A stretch of 64,000 bases of DNA from Jidongwangia harbinensis (GTDB taxonomy: Bacteria; Actinomycetota; Actinomycetes; Mycobacteriales; Micromonosporaceae), in the NCBI RefSeq assembly GCF_020216025.1, contig NZ_JAIWNC010000004.1:186001-250000 (forward strand), read 5' to 3'. The position numbers and the translations under genes were made by a program. The notes under the pieces were generated by a model. It was not told where the DNA came from, did no database searches, and was given only the letters and a program-made list of their open reading frames with translations. Below are positions 767 through 22,972 of this stretch, piece after piece (the stretch's first letter is position 1; every line of letters starts with the position of its first letter).

Positions 767-936
767 GTCGCTGACCTTAGTGCAGGTCACCAGGCACTGT
801 CCCGGGTCAATTTTCGGCGGAGCCGCCAACGCCGGCTCAGCCGTTCAGCCAGGCCCCCCGGGTCGATCCACATCACCGTGGGCCAGCGCACCACCCCGCC
901 GAAAGTTATCCACAGAAGTTATCCACAGGCACGCCA

Positions 937-950
937 GTTTCACGTGAAAC
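937..950. promoter_or_regulatory. parS: parS site (perfect)
   Basis: GTTTCACGTGAAAC, the palindromic ParB-binding core, flanked by A on both sides. It lies 10 bp from a DnaA box. Confidence 0.93.
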
Positions 951-1014
951 ACGACGTAGAACGCTTGCGCACCCTGTGGATACAGACGTGGACAACGCTG
1001 CAGCCATCGGCGTC

Positions 1015-1028
1015 GTTTCACGTGAAAC
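1015..1028. promoter_or_regulatory. parS: parS site (perfect)
   Basis: GTTTCACGTGAAAC, 78 bp from the previous site (start to start) and between DnaA-box-like sequences. Confidence 0.93.
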
Positions 1029-1817
1029 GCGGCACGCTGGTTTCTCAACAGCCTTACGCACAGCTTGTGGATACTGCCCATCTCCTATGCAAGCCGCTTC
1101 GCTCGGAGGCGTAGTACGGCCCTTCCGCGTCGCGCCCTGGTCGACACTTCTCGATCACCAAACCGGCGGGCCGACGCTCTCCGGGAGAGGGTCGCGCCGA
1201 GCCAGATTCCCTCGTTCGTGGCGGCTCCGTCATTCGCGGAGCGGGCACGCGGCCGAGTTCATTCGGTCTGGATCGGGCGTCGTGTGCGGGTGATGGCTCG
1301 CTGGTGTTGGCCCAGGATTGATGCCGTCGCGTCCGGCGTTAGGCGCGCACTCGGCGCTGCGACACGCAGAATGATCACACGCCGCGGTGACCCCCGCCAC
1401 CGAACGGCGCGCTAGATCCGTGGGCGCAGCCTCGTTCGTCACCGCAGACTCGGCCTGGTGGTACTGGCGCTGGCGTTGTGTGCGGGTGTACGGCTGCTCG
1501 CCCCGAGGCAGCTGGCGCTGGGATCGGCACGGGTATTCCCCCGAAGGACGGAGGTCGGTTCCTCATAGTTCCCGCAGTTGTCCCTCGCAACGCGGAACCT
1601 GCGGGCCAGCTTCATCACCGCCCGCCGTCGTCATTTCGTCGCTGCCCTCGCAGACCGCCGTCGCGCTCCGCCCTAGGACCGGCTTGACGTCGCCTGTCGA
1701 CCTACTGCCCGGCCCAGCCTCCACCGGATCAGCCGGCGGCATCGTCCCGCCGGGAAGGCGACCGGCCAGGGCGACACAGAAGGCGGGGGCGAGAGCGGCC
1801 CCAGCGATCAGGCCCAG

Positions 1818-1831
1818 GTTTCACGTGAAAC
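1818..1831. promoter_or_regulatory. parS: parS site (perfect)
   Basis: GTTTCACGTGAAAC in noncoding sequence. Confidence 0.93.
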
Positions 1832-2692
1832 GGCTCGGCGCGGTCCGTGGTCGCGGCTTCCTTCATCAGAGCGATGCCCACGATTTGCCGGCTACTTGCG
1901 GCCAGTCGAGTGGTCATTGTCTTTCAGGCGCTCGTAGCCATGCTCCATCTCGACCCCCGAAGCCTTGCGACAGCGGGGCTTCCCTGCGGGTGGGGTCGGC
2001 GTCGCTATCGCGCAGAGCTGACCGACGACGACACCAGCCCTTGGGTAGGTGCCGGCGCGGTGAACTGACGGCATGGGTTCGCCGTTGCGGATTAACAGGA
2101 CCGTGATGGCAACAGCGGCGGTTGTACTGTGCTCCCCGGCCTCGTTGGCCGCACCGGATCGCCTCTACCGTTGCGAGCTCGCGCGCCGGTCGTGAGATCT
2201 ACACGGGCCAGCTGACCCGCCAGCTCGCTGAGCCGCGTTCGGCTCGCTCGCGACCCGTCCTCCCACCCGGTGCGCCGTCGCAGTGGGCCATCCGCTTCGT
2301 CAGGAAGCATCCGCTCCGAAACGTCCTACCCAGAGACGGTCCTCCGACCGCTCCGCAAGGATGACGACTTTGTGGCCCGCCCCGTCCCATCGGTGCGCCG
2401 GCTCCGGCGCGGCCTGGCCGGCAGCGATCGCCATGTGCGTCCTCATTGACTGCGTCGAGTCCGAACCGAGAGTCAGGGTCAGTCCCGCACACTCCGCCCC
2501 TAGTAGGCGCGATCGCGCGTGGGTGACCGAGTCCCCATTGACCGAGGCGGCCAAGGGAACCCGTGTGGCTCACTGGCGTGCGAAGGTGTGGGGCGGCAGC
2601 ACACCGTGCGAGACCTAGACCGAGCTTGTTAGGCAACGAACGGATGACGGAAGCCTTGGCGCGCGTGGCGACTGATCCTCATCGGGTTCGCT

Positions 2693-2706
2693 GTTTCACG
2701 GGAAAC
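2693..2706. promoter_or_regulatory. parS-like site (one mismatch)
   Basis: GTTTCACGGGAAAC, one central base changed from the palindrome. The same variant recurs at 2798-2811, so it may be a maintained weaker ParB site. Confidence 0.6.
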
Positions 2707-2797
2707 GAGGCCACGGCACCAAGCCGTCCGGCGGGCGCCGTTACCGCTGCGAGGGGCCGACACACTCCACATCAGCATGCGCTTCCGCCGGCCGTGT

Positions 2798-2811
2798 GTT
2801 TCACGGGAAAC
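2798..2811. promoter_or_regulatory. parS-like site (one mismatch)
   Basis: GTTTCACGGGAAAC, identical to the variant at 2693-2706 and 105 bp from it. Confidence 0.6.
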
Positions 2812-3021
2812 CGAGGTCCACCGCGTCCCGGTTCGCCACACCCAGCGGCTATCAGCACGCACCAGCAGAGGCCCTGCTGAGCGCGTCCGCGATAGACGAG
2901 ATGTCATCCGGCGTCGACGCATGGCGCCGACGGCGCCAAGAGCGCCTCCTGCGCGGGTGCCCTTGATCGACTAGAGATCGTTCGTGCGCTCCGACGAGGG
3001 CGGAGGCGCTTCGGCTTCGGC

Positions 3022-3073
<52 letters not shown>

Positions 3074-3393
3074 AACAGGGAAGCACCACAGGGTCGTCAG
3101 CGGTAGCCCGTCATTTGCTCGCCTTCCAGGATCTTCCCCGGAGTGAGATGTCAAACGACCGAAGCCCCGGTTGGCTGACGCTTACTGGGCGCCGCCATGA
3201 ATCTCGTGATCGCCCCTACGACCCTCCGTCTCGATTCAGAGCCCCGGTCGTGGGAGATGCCGTCCCGGCGTTGCGCACGCCGCCCGAGCCTTGGGCATCC
3301 CGCCCAGCGGGTGGCTGTCGTGATTCCCACGCCCACCCATCAGACTCATGCCAGCCGACCCCGGTGGCCCAAGGCGAGCGGTCAGGCGCCCGT

Positions 3394-3407
3394 GTTTCAC
3401 GTGGAAC
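3394..3407. promoter_or_regulatory. parS-like site (one mismatch)
   Basis: GTTTCACGTGGAAC, one base off the perfect palindrome. The same variant occurs at 3447-3460. Confidence 0.6.
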
Positions 3408-3446
3408 TCCGATCTCCCAAACCGCCAAGCGTCTAATCAGACAGCC

Positions 3447-3460
3447 GTTTCACGTGGAAC
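3447..3460. promoter_or_regulatory. parS-like site abutting the heptamer repeat
   Basis: GTTTCACGTGGAAC. Its last base touches the first base of the 7-bp tandem array at 3461. Confidence 0.6.
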
Positions 3461-3614
3461 CCCGGCTCCCGGCTCCCGGCTCCCGGCTCCCGGCTCCCGG
3501 CTCCCGGCTCCCGGCTCCCGGCTCCCGGCTCCCGGCTCCCGGCTCCCGGCTCCCGGCTCCCGGCTCCCGGCTCCCGGCTCCCGGCTCCCGGCTCCCGGCT
3601 CCCGGCTCCCGGCT
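3461..3614. repeat. Heptanucleotide tandem repeat, 22 perfect copies
   Basis: CCCGGCT is repeated 22 times without a change (154 bp). It is bounded on the left by a parS-like site (3447-3460) and on the right, 44 bp away, by a perfect parS (3659-3672). Perfect identity suggests recent expansion or homogenisation. It is G-rich on the minus strand (runs of GGG every 7 bp), so it could fold into a G-quadruplex. Confidence 0.97.
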
Positions 3615-3658
3615 CCGAGGATTGTTGGTCCGCCCAGGGCCATTCGCAAGGACAGCCC

Positions 3659-3672
3659 GTTTCACGTGAAAC
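3659..3672. promoter_or_regulatory. parS: parS site (perfect)
   Basis: GTTTCACGTGAAAC, 44 bp past the 22-copy heptamer array. Confidence 0.93.
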
Positions 3673-4852
3673 GATCGCATCCTTCACAACGCAGTGGCTC
3701 AAGCCCCGACCTCCACGGAAACCGTGCGCCTTAACCAAAAAGAGTCGTCAAGTAAGTCCGAAGCCAATGAATAGGGGAGTAGATGAACCACACCCATTCT
3801 TCGAACCACAGGCACACCTCTCACGACTCAGAGACTGAGACCTCGCCCGCTCGACATCGCTGATCAAGGCCGCCATGGACCGCCTGCACGGAACAACCGG
3901 CGAGCCACCGATCTGCCGAGTCCTCAGTAAGCACGACCGGTCCGCCCATCGGAGCTGAAACCGGCCGCGCTCCCTAGCGACGACTAGAACCGTCCCAACC
4001 AACGCGGTCGCCTAGCCATGCCAGGCCAACCAGCAAGACCCGCTCGTCTGGTCACCAAGAAGCAGAAGCAGGTCCTTGGCGACACCCGACACCAGCCACC
4101 ACCGGCCCGCCGAGCAATCAGCAGCAGCCCCACACAGCGGCCCAAACAGCCAGGGCGAAAGCAAGTTCACCGCTGCTCTTCGCCTCCAATCACCACCAGC
4201 AGCAGCCAGTAGCCCAACCCAACCCCGCTCATAACACGGCCTAGGCGCAAACTCGTCGCCGCCGCAGCGCCAGGGCACACTCGTCGGCCCAGCCACCGAC
4301 GCTGCGCGAACCACCGCGGCCCAAGAGAACCAACAGAACGCCCCGAACCGACGAGCCACGCACCACGCGCCCCGAGTCCTAAGACACCAAGCCAGCGACA
4401 TGAGCCGGCCGGCCACCCACCCCCGCCAAGCCCTCACAACATCGAGCTGGCCCGCATCCCAAGGTTCAGACCCCAGACGAACACGCCTACCTCGTCCCCG
4501 GATCTCCATACTCCAACCGAGACCGGATCCGACGCCTCACCTCGCACCCCCCGGTGAGAACACCCCCCAACACAAGCGGAATACGAGTTCCCCCTATAAC
4601 AAGAACCATCGAATCAACAACAAGCCATCATCCCCAGACCACCCGACAAGACGAATCCCGCTCATCTCAACGCCCCAGCCAAAACGGCCCGCCGGAAACG
4701 ACCATCAGGAGCCTTTAAAAGACCCCAGAACCGAAATCCCACAAAGATCAAAATCGCAGCAGAACGGCTCTGACAGAATTACTTGACCTTGCAACTACAC
4801 CCCACAGGCCCGCAACTACGACCCACAAGAGCCCTCAACCCAGCCGAACAAG

Positions 4853-4894
4853 CCCACGCCCGGCCCACGCCCGGCCCACGCCCGGCCCACGCCC
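4853..4894. repeat. 11-bp tandem repeat
   Basis: Three full copies and one partial copy of CCCACGCCCGG, about 130 bp beyond the 3' end of parB. Confidence 0.85.
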
Positions 4895-5019
4895 TCACGC
4901 CGCCCACCCACCACAACCCGGACATGAAGAAGGCACGCGATCCGCCAGAATCACGTGCCGTCGTCCACCGATCCTCAGCAGCGCACCCACCCGGCCAAGC
5001 CCAGGCACGCACACCGGGA

Positions 5020-6108
5020 TCACTCGTCCTCAGCCGCGCCCCCCGCGCCTTCCTCTTCCACCCCGATCATCCCAACGATCCGCTCCAGGTCATCCACCGT
5101 CGCGAACTCTATGGTGATCTTGCCCTTGTTCCGGCCGATGTCGACCTTCACCCGGGTGTCGAACCGATCCGAGAGCCGATCGGCAAGGTCGTTCAACGCA
5201 GGCGCGTGCACTCTGGCCCGCCGGGCGGGAGCCGCCTTCTTGGCGGGTCCGTCCGCGATGGCCAGCGACACCAGTTCCTCGGTGGCCCGGACCGACAGTC
5301 CCTCTGCCACGATGCGCAGCGCGAGCTGTTCCTGGGCGTCGTTGTCGTCCAGGCCGAGGAGCGCCCGCGCATGCCCCGCGGACAGAACGCCGGCCGCCAC
5401 CCGGCGCTGCACCGGCGCCGGCAGGTTCAGCAAGCGGATGGTGTTGGAGATCTGCGGCCGGCTGCGGCCGATCCGGCGAGCCAACTCCTCATGGGTGGCG
5501 CCGAATTCGTCGAGCAGCTGCTGATAGGCGGCCGCCTCTTCCAGCGGGTTGAGGTTGGCGCGGTGAATGTTCTCGAGCAGGGCGTCCCGCAGCATGGCGT
5601 CGTCGCGCGTGTCGCGCACGATGGCCGGGATCGTTTCCTTGCCCACGGCCTGCGCGGCACGCCAGCGCCGCTCGCCCATGACCAGTTCGTACTTGCCGTC
5701 GCCGCTGTCGCGCACCACGATCGGCTGGAGGAAGCCCACCTCTTGGATGGACGTCTTCAGCTCCTCGAGCGCCTCTTCGTCGAAGACGTGTCGCGGCTGC
5801 TTCGGGTTGGGGTGGATCGCGGTGACCGGCAGTTCGGCGAACCGCGCACCCGGGACCGGGGCCAACTCGTTCTCGGGCTCGATCGCGGGCAGCGCCTCGT
5901 CGGGCTCGGCAGCGGGCGGCGGCGGGGGAGGAGCAGCGGCAGCAGCCGGTGCTTCCGGAGTGCCCGCCTGGGCTGGCGCCGGCGGAGCGACGGGTGCCGG
6001 CGGGGCCTCCGGCGCCGGTGGTTCCTCGGTGGCCACGGCGGCTGCCGGTGCGGTCGGGATCAACGCGCCCAGGCCTCGGCCGAGACCACCCCGTGGACGA
6101 TTCTTCAT
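5020..6108 (-). CDS. parB: Chromosome-partitioning protein ParB
   Basis: ParB is a CTP-dependent DNA clamp that loads at parS and spreads to form the segregation complex. The 362 residues start [18 protein letters not shown], the basic N-terminus that typically stimulates ParA. A Pro/Ala-rich linker follows (about 18-85). The CTP-binding and parS-binding core has [10 protein letters not shown] and the ENIHR box, and a helix-turn-helix covers the segment around [18 protein letters not shown]-terminal dimerisation region follows. The ATG overlaps the parA TGA (ATGA arrangement) and has GGAGG 6 nt upstream, so parA and parB are one operon with coupled translation. At least eleven perfect or near-perfect parS sites lie in the window. 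Confidence 0.97.
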
Positions 6109-8072
6109 GCCGCGCCTCCGTTACTGACCCCACGCATCGCGATCTCCAGAGCGGCCTCGAAGTAGCTGGTAGCCCCCCGCGAACCCGGATCGTAGGTCAT
6201 CACGGACTGGCCGTAGCTCGGAGCCTCCGACACTCGGACGTTGCGCGGAATCACCGCCTGGAGGACCTTCTCCCCGAAGTGGTTCCGCACGTCCTGTTCC
6301 ACCGCGTCGGCCAGCCGGGTACGGCGGTCGTACATGGTCAGGAGGATCGTGGAGACGTCCAGCGTCGGGTTGAGGTGCTGACGGACCAGGTTGATGTTGT
6401 TGATCAGCTGGTTCAGGCCCTCCAGCGCGTAGTACTCGCACTGGATCGGGATGAGCACCTCTTGCGCGGCGCACAGCGCGTTGACCGTCAGCAGGCCGAG
6501 CGAGGGCGGGCAGTCGATGAAGACGTAGTCGAACTTCTCCGGGTGTGCCGCGATGGCGCGGGCCAGTCGCGACTCACGCGCCACGACCGAGACCAGCTCG
6601 ATCTCCGCACCGGCCAGGTCGATGGTCGCGGGTACGCAGAAGAGGTTCGGAATGCCCTCGACCGGCTGGGCCACCTCGGCCAGGGGCACATTGTCGATGA
6701 GGCAGTCGTAGACGTCGGGCACGCCCGCGTGGTGCGGGACGTTCAGCCCGGTGGAAGCGTTGCCCTGGGGATCCAGGTCCACCACCAGGACCCGGTTGCC
6801 GTGCAGCGCGAGCGCTACGGCCAGGTTCACGGTGGTGGTGGTCTTACCCACGCCGCCCTTCTGGTTAGCGACGCAGAGAACCCTCGGATGGTCGGGTCGC
6901 GGCATGATGATCTCGCCGCTGGGATTGAGGATCTGCACAGCACGCAACGCTTCCATGGCCAGGGGCGGATCGTCCTCATCCCGGCCCGGCGTTTCACGTG
7001 AAACATGCTCGTCTGGAGCGCTGCCGTCACCCGTAGGCGGTGGCACCGGCGAGGGCGGCACCAGCGGAACCGGCGCAGAGCCGGACACCGGCGCCACCGA
7101 CGGCTCGGTGCGGGGGGCCGGCGCGGTCCGGCGTGGCTCGACCTGGACGGCCTCTTCGCCGGTCAGCGGGCCTCCGGCGCCATCGTTGGACGGATTGACC
7201 GCCGGACGGCCGTACACCTGGCCGCCGTTCGCCTGAGCACTCCCGTGTCCATGACCCGCACGCGGCTGTGGCACGCCGTGCTCCTCACTGTCGAAGCCCA
7301 TTGCTGGACCAGCCGGACCGTCCGGTACGCCCGCGCCGGGACCGGCCGCGTATCCATGGGAGCCGGTCGGATGACCCGGCAGGCCTGCACGCCGATCGGG
7401 TTCGGCGAATGGATCGGTTTCACGTGAAACACCACGGCCACCGTCGAGGCCTCTGCCGTACTCATGCACCGTCTTGTCCCTGCCTGCTTGGAATGGGTCG
7501 GCACCGCGAGCACTCACCACGTCATCGACGGACGATGCAGGCGGTGAGTCAGGAGGCGGCGAGTCGTCGGGTGCGTCCGCCGTCCGGTCCACACTATCGA
7601 CGCGCGGCCAGCCTACGGCCGTCGGGCGGTGCGTGCCACGGGTGTCCGTCTGATGGGGCGCCCCGACCGACGGTCGTCGTGCACCGGACTCTCGTGCACC
7701 GGACCGTCGTGCACCGGATCGTGGAGCCTGTGATCGCTGTGCGTTGGATCGCTGTGCGTTGGGGTGTGGCGTCATGGCAACGGCCGCACGGTCTCCGCCC
7801 GGAGGCGAAACCTCGTCGGCCGAGGAAGAAGGGGTCGGGCTTGAACAGGCTAGGGCCAAGGGCATCGGCCCAGCAAGGCCCACATCTGTCGGCTTTTCGG
7901 GTTGAGGCGCGGTCGGCTCGAAAACCATGAACCCGGGTACGAGCCGGAGCGAAGCCGCGTACTCCGGACTCGCCTGCGCGGGCCAGCCGGTGGCCGCCGG
8001 CGCCTTGCCCGGTGACCGGGCGGGTGGACGTGGTGATTTCGCTGATCGTTGACGTCCGCCCCGCTTGGCCAT
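6105..8072 (-). CDS. parA: Chromosome-partitioning ATPase ParA with a ~390-residue disordered N-terminal extension
   Basis: This is a Walker-type segregation ATPase that moves ParB-parS complexes. The catalytic domain begins near residue 385 and has the deviant Walker A box QKGGVGKTT (about 401-410), [11 protein letters not shown] and FIDCPPSLG. The first ~385 residues are Pro/Ser/Arg/Gly-rich and low-complexity, including an R-S-G-A-R type tandem segment near 105-135. ParA proteins are usually 250-320 residues. I trust the long form because ATG 8070-8072 is preceded by GGAGGGG at ideal spacing and follows the rsmG stop by 0 nt. Two perfect parS sites (6991-7004, 7417-7430) are read through in frame, each giving VSRET in the protein. 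Confidence 0.93.
6991..7004. promoter_or_regulatory. parS: parS site (perfect) inside parA
   Basis: GTTTCACGTGAAAC within the disordered-region codons of parA, read as VSRET on the minus strand. Confidence 0.93.
7417..7430. promoter_or_regulatory. parS: parS site (perfect) inside parA
   Basis: GTTTCACGTGAAAC within parA, again read as VSRET and 426 bp from the first intragenic site. Confidence 0.93.
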
Positions 8073-8891
8073 CTATCCCCTCCGCGATCTCCTTCGCCCG
8101 GAACCGCGCCCACCGGAGCCACCGGCGGAACGGTCCGAACCGGCCGCCCGCTTGGACGGCCTCGGCCGTGGTGCCACGACGTTCCGCTCCCGCACGATCT
8201 CCACGACCGTCGTCGGCGGCTCGATCAGCCCGGTCCCGCAGAGCGTGACGGACGGATCCGAACCGCCAAGCCGGGCGATCGCGTCACGGTGCTCGGCCAC
8301 CTCGTCCGCGGCCGACGAGCCCTTGAGGGCCAGCAGCCGGCCGCCCAGGGCGGCGAGTGGCAAGCACCAACCGGCAAGCCGGTCCAGTGGCGCAACCGCC
8401 CGGGCGGTGACGACATCGGCGGCGACGGGGGGTCCGCCGGCGAGGTCTTCCGCTCGTCCCCGGACGACCGTGACGGTCGTGTCGAGGTCGAGCGCTGTCA
8501 CCGCCTCGGACAGGAAGGCGGTACGTCGTGCTAGTGGCTCGACCAGCGTGATGGTGAGATCAGGCCGAGCCACTGCCAGCACGATACCGGGCAAACCTGC
8601 ACCAGAGCCCACGTCGACCACAGAAGCGCCGATAGGGATCATCTCGGACATAACACCGCAGTTGATGAGGTGCCTTTCCCAGATGCGCGGGGCCTCCCGA
8701 GGACCGATCAGGCCGCGGACGACGCCATCGGTCATGAGAAGCCGGGCATAGGCCTCCGCGGTGGACAGGCGATCACCGAAGACCTGGTGAGCAGCTTCGA
8801 GATATTCACCGGGCGGCGCCGGGAATGACGACGGCCCGGGCGTCGAGGCGCCCGGGCCGAGGTCACCCGCGCCGGAGCGTGGGTCGGTCAT
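8073..8891 (-). CDS. rsmG: 16S rRNA (guanine-N7) methyltransferase RsmG (GidB)
   Basis: It uses SAM to methylate N7 of the 16S rRNA guanosine equivalent to E. coli G527; loss of it gives low-level streptomycin resistance in actinomycetes. The 272 residues have the SAM-binding loop [16 protein letters not shown] (about 91-106), preceded by WERHLINC, and [12 protein letters not shown], which is diagnostic for RsmG. The last ~30 residues are a basic Gly/Arg tail. ATG 8889-8891 begins 2 nt after the jag stop (TGACGATG). Its TAG is directly followed by the parA ATG, so it belongs to the jag-rsmG-parA-parB run. Confidence 0.95.
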
Positions 8892-8893
8892 CG

Positions 8894-9451
8894 TCAGTCG
8901 GCCGGCTGAACCACAATGCGGCGGTTCGGCTCGACGCCCTCGGACTCGCTCTGCACGCCCGGGATGGCGTTGACGACGTCGTGAACGCATTTGCGCTCGA
9001 ACGCCGACATCGGCTCCAGGCGTACCGCATCGCCGTGTTCCTTGACCTTCTCGACGGCGTTGCGGGCCACCGCGGCCAGCTCCTTGCGCCGCGAGGCGCG
9101 GTAGCCGCCGATGTCGAGCAGCAGCCGGCTCGGGGAGCCGGTGGCGCGGAAGATCGCCAGCCTCGTCAGCTCCTGCAGCGCCTCCAGCGTGGCGCCGCGC
9201 TGACCGACCAACGGCTGGAGGCGGCCACCGACCACCTCCACCATCGGGCGGCCCGCCGACACCAGCTCGTCGATGTCGCCGTCGTAGTCGAGGATGTCCA
9301 ACAGACCCTCGACATAGTCGGCAGCGATCTCGCTCTGGCGGAACAGGTCACCGTCGGAAGCAACGTTCTCCGACTTCTTGGTCTCCTCGGCACCCTCGGC
9401 GCTGGAGGGGTCGGCGGAAACCGAGGAATCGGGAGTGCTGGTGTCGGTCAC
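8894..9451 (-). CDS. jag: Jag/KhpB-type single-stranded nucleic-acid-binding protein (KH + R3H)
   Basis: This RNA-binding protein is conserved next to yidC and linked to membrane-protein insertion and cell-wall growth. The start is GTG 9449-9451 with GGAG 6 nt upstream; an ATG two codons earlier is the alternative. An acidic, Ser-rich N-terminal segment is followed by a KH-like domain ending in [17 protein letters not shown]-terminal R3H domain follows, with [15 protein letters not shown]. The protein has 185 residues and lies 93 bp after yidC and 2 nt before rsmG, on the same strand. Confidence 0.92.
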
Positions 9452-11386: not shown

Positions 11387-11965
11387 GTCAAAACTCCGTC
11401 TTCCAACTGCGGATCGGGGGCAGGGGCTGCCAAGGGCCACTTTATCAGAGCGGCGCGGAGCAACCGCCCGACCCTACGGACGCCCGGTGGGGTGGTCAAC
11501 CATCACCGACTCGTGGCACGCCGGCAAACTGGCATCTCGACGGTGTTGGTGCAGGTCTGCGTACCCGGGTCGGGAAGGTTTTGCTGCCCGGTGGCACCCC
11601 GCAGATGGGACGCCGGTTGAAGCCGCGCCTACCGCGCTGTTAGCGTGCCCGTTTGCTGGTCTCCAGCGTCGTTCGCATACCGGGGCAATACCGGACGCCC
11701 CAGTCAATCGTTCGGCACGGTGAGCCTGATGTCCCGCGCCAGTACAGGCTCCGGGAAGTCCGCCGACCATCCGGCCGGGGAGCGACTGCCGGTCGGCCCA
11801 CAGGTTGTGGATAACCTGTGGACAGCCGGTGGCGCCATGCACGTTCAGCAGCTACACATGCTGAGTTGGGGGGACCCGGTCGTTGCCTGCAGGAGCAACG
11901 GGCAGGCAAGGGCGGAAGCCGGACAACGGCCATCGGACACCGGTGGCGATGGGGGTGGCGCGGCG
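11387..11965. promoter_or_regulatory. rpmH-dnaA divergent intergenic region with DnaA boxes
   Basis: A TGTGGATAA box at 11806-11814 is followed 2 bp later by TGTGGACAG at 11817-11825, about 140 bp before the dnaA start. They could be autoregulatory DnaA sites on the dnaA promoter. The interval must also hold the rpmH and dnaA promoters; I could not place their hexamers with confidence. Confidence 0.75.
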
Positions 11966-13843
11966 GTGGCCGATACGGTCGACCTTGGCGAGGTGTGGAG
12001 CGCGGCGACGGACGAGCTGGCTGACGAGATCGTGTCGCCCCAGCAGCGTGCGTACCTGCGACTCACCCGCCTGCGCGCGATCGTGGAGGACACCGCGCTG
12101 CTGTCCGTGCCGGACCTGTTCACCCGCGACGTGATCGAGTCCAAGCTGCGGCCGGCGATCACCGACGCGCTGTCACGCCGGCTGGGCCGGCCGATCCAGG
12201 TCGCCGTGACGGTACGCCCACCGGAGGACGGTTCCGGTCGCCCCGGCACGGTGTACGGCAGCCCGCCCCCGGAACCGCAGGCACCGCAGAGCCACTACGC
12301 GGAGTCCTCGTCCGGCTACGGTCCCGATCGTTACGCGCAGCCCCCCTCGTACGCCCAGCCCGGCTACCCGGACGACTACGACCGGGCGCCGACGGGTTCG
12401 GCCCAGCACTCCGCGCCGTCCGCGCCGTACCCCCGTGGTGTTCCCGCCGCCCGCGACGGCCAGGACGCGCTGTTCGCGGCGCCGGTGTCGCAGGGCCCGC
12501 CCGCCGCGCCGCAGGCGTCGACGCTGGCCGCGCCGCAGCAACTCCCGGTCCAGCCGCCGGCCGGCCCGGAGCAGAAGGAACCGAACGAGTCCAGCCGCCG
12601 GATGGCCACCGAGCCGGCGCAACGGCGCGACAACCAGCGCACCGACGAACGCCCCCTGCTCGGCGAGCGGTCCATGCACGCCGAACGGTCGCCGATGCCG
12701 GACCGGCGCGACGACACGCTGCACATGTCCCGGGCCGGCGACAACGGTCCCGGCCGGGCGCCGATGGACATGCGCGGCTCGGGTCGCGACGACCGGCGGC
12801 CGGGCGGCAACGACGGCAACCGGCTCAACCCGAAATACATGTTCGAGACGTTCGTCATCGGCTCCTCGAACCGGTTCGCGCACGCCGCCAGCGTGGCCGT
12901 CGCCGAATCGCCGGCGAAGGCCTACAACCCGCTCTTCATCTACGGCAGTTCCGGGCTGGGCAAGACACACCTGCTGCACGCAATCGGTCATTACGCCACC
13001 ACGCTCGGGCACGCCCGGTCGGTCCGTTACGTGTCCACCGAGGAATTCACCAACGACTTCATCAACTCGTTGCGTGACGACAAGACCCAGGCTTTCCAAC
13101 GGCGCTACCGCGACGTCGACATCCTGCTGATCGACGACATCCAGTTCCTGGAAAATCGCGAGCGGACCCAGGAGGAGTTCTTCCACACCTTCAACACGCT
13201 GCACAACGCGAACAAGCAGATCGTGATCAGCTCGGACCGCTCGCCGCGCCAGCTGGCCACGCTCGAAGACCGGATGCGCACCCGGTTCGAGTGGGGCCTG
13301 CTCGCCGACATCCAGCCCCCCGACCTGGAAACCCGCATCGCCATCCTGCAGAAGAAGGCCGCGCAGGAACGCATGTTCGCCCCCGACGACGTGCTCGAAT
13401 TCATCGCGTCCCGGGTCTCCAATTCCATCCGCGAACTCGAAGGCGCGCTCATCCGCGTCACCGCATTCGCCAGCCTGACCCGCTCGGCGGTGCAGTTGTC
13501 GCTGGCCGAGGAGGTCCTGCGCGACTTCATGCCGGACGGCGCCGGCCCGGAAATCACCGCCGACCAGATCATGGTGTCGACCGCCGACTATTTCGGTGTC
13601 TCCCTCGAGGACCTGCGCGGCCACTCCCGGTCCCGGGTCCTGGTAAACGCCCGCCAGGTCGCCATGTACCTCTGCCGCGAACTGACCGACCTCTCGCTAC
13701 CCCGGATCGGCCAGGCCTTCGGTGGCCGCGACCACACCACGGTGATGCACGCCGACCGCAAGATCCGCCAGCACATGGCGGAGCGGCGGTCCCTTTACAA
13801 CCAGATCGCCGAACTCACCAACCGGATCAAACAAAACACCTGA
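11966..13843 (+). CDS. dnaA: Chromosomal replication initiator protein DnaA
   Basis: DnaA is the AAA+ ATPase that binds DnaA boxes and opens oriC. I chose GTG 11966, with a G-rich ribosome site just upstream and the N-terminus [17 protein letters not shown]; this gives 625 residues. Domain I covers about 1-90. A long Pro/Gln/Arg-rich linker (domain II, about 95-285) is typical of actinomycetes. Domain III has [14 protein letters not shown] (about 326) and [20 protein letters not shown]. Domain IV carries the DNA-binding signature [15 protein letters not shown] (about 586). An open frame upstream to 11645 is not homologous and contains DnaA boxes. Confidence 0.97.
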
Positions 13844-13881: not shown

Positions 13882-14339
13882 CGGCCCGGCCAGGAGATCC
13901 CACCCGGCCGTCCCCGCAGCCGGGCAGGACTTCCGCCACCGGCCCGGCCACCCTCGGCACGCCCCTCCCGACGTACCCGGCACCTCCCCGAGCCCCGCCG
14001 GGCCGGCCCGGTCCCGGAGTCCGGGCGATGCCCGCGCGCCGCCATTGTGGATAAGCGAGGAGGCGGCCCGTCCGCACCGCCCTGGCTTGCGCTCGGGCTC
14101 ATCGGCCGCTCCCGGGCTCCTAGCCGCTGCCGGTCCCGCCCGTCACGCCGGTCTGCTGGGTCCCCGACTCCGGCGCCGGCCAGGTTCGGCACGAGCCGGC
14201 GTGCTCGCCAACCGGGTCGGGTCGGTGCCCTGGGGGGTCATGCCCGGCCGCCGCCCACCCCGTCGGAATAGGTCATCCAGTCGACTCGCGCCGACCCGCT
14301 GGGTAAACCGAGCGCCCGCTCGCATCTCCCATTCCGCCC

Positions 14340-14644
14340 GTGCGCCGCACCCCGCCGGGCCCGTGTGAATTACGGGCATGCTCCGCACCGCAGCTCAACA
14401 CGCACCGCACCCCACCACACCGTGTGTGGACAACCGGCACGCTCCGCACCGCAGCCCAACACGCACCGCACCCCACCACACCGTGTGTGGACAACCGGCA
14501 CGCTCCGCACCGCAGCCCAACACGCACCGCACCCCACCACACCGTGTGTGGACAACCGGCACGCTCCGCACCCCAGCCCAACACGCACCGCACCCCACCA
14601 AGCGGTGTGTGGACAACCGGCACGCTCCGCACCCCAGCCGAACG
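14340..14644. repeat. 61-bp iteron-like repeat in oriC, five copies
   Basis: Copies begin at 14340 (diverged), 14401, 14462, 14523 and 14584. The last four each carry TGTGGACAA, the reverse of TTGTCCACA, at 14425, 14486, 14547 and 14608. They are therefore spaced exactly 61 bp, close to six helical turns, which puts the boxes on the same face of the DNA. TTGTCCACA is the DnaA box preferred in Streptomyces. Confidence 0.93.
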
Positions 14645-14972
14645 CGCACCCACGGGCGATGTCACCGCTTGAACATGGCTCGCCCAACCTTCGCCTGAAA
14701 GCCGCGCCGTGCCATCCAGCGACGGTGCGCCCACTCCATCGGCGAATCACCGGTCGGACGCCGGCGGAACATTCTCCGCTCCGCAGCCTCGCACCCCTGC
14801 CTCGCACCGCCGCCTCGGCGGGCTCGGCACGGCGGGCTCGGCACGGCGCTGCACCGTGTCGATGATCTGGTTGTGGCTGAGGCACGGCAGGCCCGGATGG
14901 CCCGGCACTACGAGCCCGGCATGGCCTCCTCGCACGCCCGCCTTGAAAAAGCCGCCTAGCTCCGCCCTGCCC

Positions 14973-15128
14973 GCCTGCCCTGCCCGCCTGCCCTGCCCGC
15001 CTGCCCTGCCCGCCTGCCCTGCCCGCCTGCCCTGCCCGCCTGCCCTGCCCGCCTGCCCTGCCCGCCTGCCCTGCCCGCCTGCCCTGCCCGCCCGCCGTGC
15101 CCGCCCGCCGTGCCCGCCAGCCGCGCTC
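14973..15128. repeat. 13-bp tandem repeat in oriC
   Basis: Nine perfect copies of GCCTGCCCTGCCC (14973-15089) are followed by three degenerate ones. The array has almost no A, so it is a rigid GC block between the iterons and the main DnaA-box cluster. Confidence 0.93.
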
Positions 15129-15242
15129 GCCTCGCTAAGGCCACCTCGCCAAAGCCACCTCGCACGCCCGATCGGCGTCGGCCGATCAAGGGCCCGCCGC
15201 GGAACGTGAGGCCATGGCTCCGCCAAGCCACGGACGTGCAGA

Positions 15243-15608
15243 TTGTCCCCAGCCCCAGCGTGCCAACGTTATCCACCGTTCGTCCCCAGGCAGTTGTCCC
15301 CAGCAGTGGATAACACCTCCAGCGGCTACCCACAGATGTGGACGAGTCCTGGGGATATCGATGTGGACAAGCACAGAGCGTCACATCTTTGTCCACCGCC
15401 TGTGGAGGAGTGTGGATTACCTGTTGAAGGTTCTGGGGACGACGAGTCGGTAGCGTCCCGGCGTTATCCCCAGGGCGGGGGACAAAGTCGGTGGATAGCC
15501 GGTGGATAGCCGGTGGACAACGGTGGACAACCGGCTCCGCGTCGGCGACTGTGGACGCGAGCCGGGGTTTGTACCCGGGTTACCCACAGGCAAACCACCG
15601 GTGGATAA
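15243..15608. promoter_or_regulatory. Main DnaA-box cluster of oriC
   Basis: Boxes or close variants include TTGTCCCCA 15243-15251, TTATCCACC 15269-15277, AGTGGATAA 15305-15313, TGTGGACGA 15337-15345, TGTGGACAA 15362-15370, TTGTCCACC 15389-15397, TGTGGATTA 15411-15419 and GGTGGATAA 15600-15608. Several GGTGGATA and GGTGGACAA copies lie at 15490-15531. Orientation is mixed, as in Streptomyces and mycobacterial origins. Confidence 0.88.
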
Positions 15609-15855
15609 CCCGCTGACCAGCCCAGACAGGGGTTCTCCACACTGTGCACAGGACCGATGGTTATGACGAGTTATCTCTTCTAAGAGAACAAAAACCAATC
15701 ATCAGCGTTGGGGAAGGTGTGGACAGCCGCTTCGGCTCGACGCGCCACCGCTTCCGAACCCCAGCACCGGGGGCGGGGCATCACCGTCTGGACACGCGCC
15801 ATAGAGTTCGTCAGGGCAGAGACGCCCTATAGAGGAAGCGTTGCGGAGGGGCAGC

Positions 15856-22932: not shown

Positions 22933-22972
22933 TTATGCACAGCTTCAGCGGCTTTCCACAACGTTATCCACA
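22933..22972 (+). promoter_or_regulatory. DnaA boxes between gyrB and gyrA
   Basis: TTATGCACA (22933-22941), CTTTCCACA (22952-22960) and a perfect TTATCCACA (22964-22972) are all in the same orientation, 57-96 bp before the gyrA start. Confidence 0.7.

Follow-up and report, generated by a model that had tools for sequence, protein, structure and literature searches.

Predicted DnaA boxes interleaved with parS in a conserved element near the presumed replication origin of Micromonosporaceae

The locus between parAB and its neighbour gene

The window analysed here is a 64-kb stretch of DNA from Jidongwangia harbinensis, and all positions given without a contig are positions in it. At 906-1074, five predicted DnaA boxes lie around two perfect parS sites, as found both by direct reading and by a motif scan. 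Boxes 1 and 2 (906-914 and 919-927, forward strand) are perfect copies of TTATCCACA, the second 13 bp after the first, and their positions are conserved in alignments. They are followed by parS 1, the perfect 14-mer GTTTCACGTGAAAC at 937-950, and then by a degenerate block resembling a parS half-site, CGTAGAAC, on the forward strand at 955-962, which keeps a fixed distance from parS 1. Box 3 (GTATCCACA, one mismatch) is inverted and lies on the reverse strand at 975-983, 24 bp after parS 1. Box 4 (TTGTCCACG, 987-995, reverse strand) is weak, with two mismatches to TTATCCACA and one to TTGTCCACA. The second perfect copy of GTTTCACGTGAAAC, parS 2, is found at 1015-1028, 78 bp after parS 1, and is kept in the window's own branch; box 5 (GTATCCACA, one mismatch) follows at 1066-1074 on the reverse strand and, like box 4, is branch-specific.

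Boxes with at most one mismatch to TTATCCACA number 23 in the window against 1.99 expected. Four of them fall within the 170 bp, and 300 dinucleotide shuffles of the window gave at most two per 170 bp. The original prediction of five boxes, two of them perfect, interleaved with two perfect parS sites in 170 bp is thus confirmed by reading, scan and shuffles, and it was an understatement. The tandem at 906/919 is the only one of 13-bp period in the window, allowing one mismatch per box. In the 9.74-Mb genome (120 contigs), perfect TTATCCACA occurs 21 times and its reversed control four times, and the perfect 14-mer parS occurs six times, always within window 937-7430. Perfect TTATCCACA also forms two further close pairs, at C85:124462-124481 (11 bp) and C98:190346-190375 (21 bp), and the genome-wide 14-mer scan placed no perfect parS near either.

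The same scan found further perfect parS sites at 1818-1831 and 3659-3672, and two inside parA, at 6991-7004 and 7417-7430. Between the element and parB, about 3 kb (1080-4000) is gene-poor and holds several parS and parS-like sites; no convincing gene was recognised there, and the ORFs tested gave no family match. At one related locus (L190), comparable gene-poor DNA flanks the element on the opposite side. parB (5020-6108, reverse strand; Pfam HTH_ParB, ParB_N and ParB_C) encodes a protein with 95% identity, over the best segment, to ParB of Pseudosporangium ferrugineum. It is followed on the same strand by parA (6105-8072; longest ORF with a provisional start position, Pfam AAA_31) and rsmG (8073-8990), whereas dnaA (11645-13843; longest ORF, Pfam Bac_DnaA and Bac_DnaA_C) runs on the forward strand.

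Downstream of dnaA, the box scan revealed a cluster of DnaA boxes at 14046-15641, and cumulative GC skew reaches its minimum near 14-16 kb. Together, dnaA, this cluster and the skew minimum place the presumed oriC here, about 13-14.7 kb from the element, which bears out the distance of about 13 kb proposed beforehand. Where the presumed oriC starts, at 14425-14616, the reverse strand carries four TTGTCCACA boxes exactly 61 bp apart, like a tandem repeat. Distant from oriC, two boxes, TTATGCACA and TTATCCACA, occur 31 bp apart at 22933-22972. The presence of DnaA boxes close to a partition locus is typical of origins, so that a second minor replication origin, or one of plasmid type, could be imagined at the element itself. 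This is hardly credible, since both the minimum of GC skew and the large cluster of boxes sit at dnaA and since an AT-rich unwinding region and a turn of the GC skew are both missing beside the boxes of the element, where GC content is 46% at 901-950 and between 54 and 76% in the remaining 50-bp steps of 851-1225.

Conservation, spacing and position in the family

The 36 loci matching the window best by ParB (L003-L038) belong to Micromonosporaceae or, going by their names, to members of this family. Of these loci and the window, 37 sequences in all, 23 have the tandem with parS after it. Nine of the remaining 14 stand on contigs that end before the neighbour gene (L004-L006, L009, L010, L019, L026, L028 and L035), and the other five are variants. 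In an alignment of the 23, the box cores and parS are invariant and the letters between them vary. The exact pattern, defined as two boxes at 13 bp, then 8-10 bp, then a perfect parS, was present in 213 of 300 genomes sampled from the family, which we infer to be Micromonosporaceae, and in 17 of 42 genera; it was missing in 87 genomes, and the reversed control gave none. It occurs once per genome except in G106, whose two copies, of equal score, lie on the same contig (C397:2719-2800 and 94387-94468) and may reflect an assembly duplication. An initial model search had matched 284 of the 300 genomes at E <=0.01, but the exact-pattern count is preferred because weak model matches can be parS alone.

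In wider samples, matches came from the family only. A sequence model built from the 23 elements matched 34 of 199 genomes of the order at E <=1e-6, all 34 from the window's family, and three of 396 genomes of the phylum, again all in the family, held a perfect parS faced by a box TTRTCCACA within 30 bp, with no match to the reversed pattern; this last search covered boxes facing parS as distinct from boxes facing away. The original prediction had named a lack of conservation of the boxes in close relatives as one outcome that would refute it. The comparison was made, and close relatives do keep the boxes, which lends strong support to its view that the boxes go with parS. Among 43 loci outside the family, six (L047, L051, L062, L063, L067 and L082) carry a single box between two parS sites, at about 8170-8220. 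These loci (from Amycolatopsis, Prauserella and Saccharomonospora) have the box TTGTCCACA in five cases and TTCTCCACA in one, 64-66 bp ahead of the second parS, upstream of parB and probably before parA, and they possibly represent a separate pairing of DnaA sites with parS in a sister family.

The core layout consists of the box tandem with its 13-bp period, 8-10 bp, parS, 24 bp and the inverted box. It corresponds to the part conserved more widely, about 86 bp at 902-987, while the 170-bp double unit is seen in the window and in eight members of its branch (L003, L008, L029, L189-L192 and L194), with the second parS 78-79 bp on and an extra box 91-93 bp past box 3. Box 4 is present only in some members of this branch, and other loci, mostly of the Micromonospora group, carry an additional inverted box 36 bp beyond box 3. 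Across 59 distinct elements, the gap between box 2 and parS is 8, 9 or 10 bp, and that between parS and box 3 is 24 bp in all but one, L018, where it is 25 bp. After removal of L018 and of near-duplicates, 36 non-redundant elements were left, in which the 24 gap letters are on average 55% alike and the last eight letters before parS 47% alike. By this comparison of sequences, the spacing of the element is kept while its sequence drifts. In the right-hand gap, the block CGTRGAAC, which resembles half a parS, is conserved in sequence; in CGTAGAAC the conserved letters stand at spacer positions 6-7 (G and T) and 11 (A), and this block may have a role beside parS 1.

A hairpin or RNA element was considered as a cause of the conservation and rejected. 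Folding of single strands of the element is indeed strong, with z between -2.98 and -8.94 for 12 sequences, and consensus folds reach z of -18 and -23 against column shuffles, because the inverted boxes and the palindromic parS pair by themselves. Outside the protein sites, pairing in the arms is 55.1% as compared with 56.0% when partners are re-dealt (1421 of 2000 permutations were as high), and pairing of parS with the right half-block is 82.6% versus 82.5%. There is thus no covariation, on which ground this explanation was dropped.

The position of the element is also constant. In 79 rows, duplicates included, it has parB on one side and the same neighbour gene on the other, and it is 8.3-15.4 kb from the conserved part of dnaA, always upstream, in 27 of the 35 genomes in which dnaA was searched; the other eight have dnaA at a contig start. 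The neighbour gene of the window runs on the reverse strand at 1-766 from the GTG start codon at 766-764 and extends past the left end. Its product has no match in Pfam, NCBIfam or PDB sequences, and its predicted structure (mean pLDDT 39.4) was too poor for a fold search. It carries an invariant AHLH motif recalling histidine-triad proteins, and we take it to be histidine-triad-like by this motif only.

The element is upstream of this gene in 77 of 77 element-gene pairs (some genomes being counted twice), at 100-357 bp in 73 of them, and DnaA has been described as a transcription factor (PMC10120649), so that the element might be a promoter of the neighbour gene, controlled by DnaA and silenced by ParB. 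Such a promoter would be expected to hold a steady orientation and distance, but the element is reversed in 11 of the 77 pairs and its distance ranges from 100 to 2322 bp, two pairs having 841-854 bp and two 2.2-2.3 kb. Moreover, the gene has a promoter-like sequence of its own, close to its start codon and separate from the element, which in the window consists of GACA at 801-798 and TAAGGT at 779-774 on the reverse strand. Of 64 distinct upstream regions, 53 contain TAGGGT, each with GACA at a steady distance; nine of the remaining 11, including the window, have close variants (TAAGGT, TAGTGT and TAGGTT). The element is therefore regarded as a module beside the promoter of the neighbour gene rather than a part of it. 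Early-branching genomes also retain the gene near parB without boxes, and promoter control is altogether an unlikely function of the element.

Variants and evolutionary history

The variants are instructive as to which parts stay together. In nine rows, the trio of boxes is kept, with 56-57 bp from box 2 to box 3, and no parS is found inside it. In eight of these nine, the nearest parS lies just outside the trio, at 12, 18, 18, 21, 23, 23, 23 and 25 bp, on the side of box 1 in six rows and on that of box 3 in two; for the ninth row the distance is 257 bp. The outside parS of L021 carries one mismatch, and four of the nine (L023, L069, L155 and L156) form one close group. Another group of variants (L033, L034, L158, L160, L166 and L168) has two parS sites with TTATCCACA near each or one of them, in the same interval. 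Boxes and parS thus remain together when one of them moves.

A quick ParB tree was made from 59 rows of the family and three outgroup rows, leaving out 20 duplicates, loci whose parB match was short and those in which no neighbour gene was found (L167, L162, L163, L171 and L175 among the last). The rows fall into four classes, with the canonical element in 31, the trio without internal parS in nine, another box beside parS in eight and none in 11. Eleven changes on the tree are needed for the four classes, and three for boxes versus none. In a clade of 48 rows (support 92), boxes stand beside parS in 47, the exception being L181 on a long branch. Of the 11 early-branching rows outside this clade, 10 show no box near parS in the interval, and the remaining one, L172, shows a single weak box; none of the four parS sites of L167, which is not in the tree, has a box near it. 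A single gain of the boxes followed by retention in the clade would fit this distribution, and it is a fit rather than a proof because the quick tree leaves 27 of its 59 inner branches open. At L173 (G024), 24 perfect parS sites, far above the other loci scanned, lie within 16.4 kb around parB, with only one DnaA box near them.

One gain and common descent would account for the presence of the element as such, and close relatives may retain parS sites and boxes that are not in use. The element might accordingly be a functionless relic or a hitch-hiking cluster retained by shared descent. We consider this quite improbable, since boxes and parS are invariant while the intervening letters are only 47-55% alike, and since place and spacing are constant across genera.

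Predicted initiator sites at the centromere

To our knowledge, parS is absent from datA and DARS. A trait of datA is the stimulation of hydrolysis of DnaA-bound ATP. The element resembles the datA and DARS1/2 loci of E. coli as described in PMC4585315, in that these are short non-coding sets of boxes with conserved spacing and a conserved place relative to oriC, and like datA it is a cluster of DnaA boxes outside oriC and close to it. It differs in that datA, according to the same description, needs an IHF site between its boxes 2 and 3 at fixed spacing, a space which parS fills here. The clusters of Streptomyces coelicolor and Bacillus subtilis, one of them actinobacterial, are likewise reported as DnaA boxes outside but near oriC, and the description of these clusters does not mention parS inside them (PMC4585315). 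In the phylum search of 396 genomes, the box-parS layout was absent from the Streptomyces-like genomes sampled (genus assigned by inference).

From these likenesses comes the main rival to the reading preferred below, namely a brake on initiation resembling datA or the box clusters just named, in which the trio would hold or inactivate DnaA after the fork has passed, soon after initiation, and the proximity of parS would be a by-product of nearness to oriC. The boxes are indeed near oriC and of high quality, clusters of this type are reported to repress untimely initiation in S. coelicolor and B. subtilis (PMC4585315), and the box-to-box spacing stays constant even where the internal parS is lost, which would also suit a function of DnaA only. 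Against the brake, there are only three to five boxes. Simple titration, moreover, does not explain why the spacing to parS is fixed as well, or why parS lies within 25 bp of eight of the nine trios that it has left. As a whole, this explanation is less likely than the reading preferred below.

Two other systems combine initiator sites with a centromere. On chromosome II of Vibrio cholerae, a ParB site lies among initiator sites at rctA/parS2, as it does in the element; there, the initiator is RctB, the chromosome is secondary and rctA is described as a regulatory locus of its origin (PMC6399470), whereas here the boxes are those of DnaA and the origin is the dnaA-linked main one. In Caulobacter crescentus, DnaA is reported to bind the parS region and, at a low level, to move unreplicated parS (Mera et al., 2014, via PMC6399470 and PMC6667618). 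Judging from these accounts, the likeness includes initiator boxes at a parS region near the origin, predicted ones in the present case, with parS at 8 kb in Caulobacter and 8-15 kb here, and we also count as a likeness that the element lies on the same side of the origin as parAB. The difference is that Caulobacter belongs to another phylum, and that the family has a rigid layout in one copy with a perfect tandem, as predicted from sequence. In Bacillus subtilis, coupling is reported to operate through ParA on DnaA, independently of the location of parS (PMC7614844), a point against the reading that follows.

We consider that there is about an even chance that DnaA acts at the centromere in the family and couples initiation to segregation, as has been reported for Caulobacter. 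DnaA would bind the inward-facing boxes that flank parS, the tandem on one side and one or two inverted boxes on the other, and ParB would load on the parS between or beside them, about 12 kb from oriC in the window and 8-15 kb in relatives. Occupancy by DnaA could then signal the state of initiation to the centromere, and the ParB-parS complex would be licensed, delayed or released by DnaA, so that segregation of the origin is timed with initiation. The mutual effect of the two proteins might consist in contact, in occlusion or in DnaA blocking sliding ParB clamps. Binding by DnaA, its interaction with ParB and the direction of the effect are presumed in this proposal.

The original prediction had named datA-like titration and coupling as alternatives. 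Coupling fits best, and titration in the manner of datA leaves the spacing and the adjacency of parS unexplained. Because boxes and a parS are not separated by loss, shift or inversion, and the internal spacings hold to the base pair, a joint nucleoprotein complex is favoured over loose titration, and bare titration and promoter control would both fit the geometry poorly. On the other side, boxes 3-5 are imperfect and L181 and L167 are box-free. Segregation evidently works without the element, since the exact layout is lacking in 87 of 300 genomes and 10 of the 11 early-branching rows have no box.

A more specific form of coupling, a dedicated centromere switch under control of the initiator, can be put forward tentatively as a possible arrangement. 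DnaA bound between the inward boxes would gate or occlude the enclosed parS or stop ParB clamps from sliding off, ParB loading would follow the state of DnaA, and one site per chromosome would time segregation to initiation in Micromonosporaceae.

Direct action of an initiator on centromeres has been described in very few bacteria, namely Caulobacter and, with another initiator, Vibrio chromosome II. As a kind, initiator sites in a centromere are already known; the present architecture in actinobacteria is apparently new: a literature search, with subscription papers mostly outside its scope, found no paper on this element in Micromonospora, Actinoplanes or Micromonosporaceae. The element is compact, sharply defined and present in single copy, and its hosts are non-pathogenic actinobacteria, so that single boxes and spacings can be changed without touching oriC or parB, and the natural variants, with parS inside or beside the trio and in both orientations, provide ready-made controls. 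That the layout is kept in about seven of ten sampled genomes suggests that the start of replication and the movement of the chromosome may be linked in this family.
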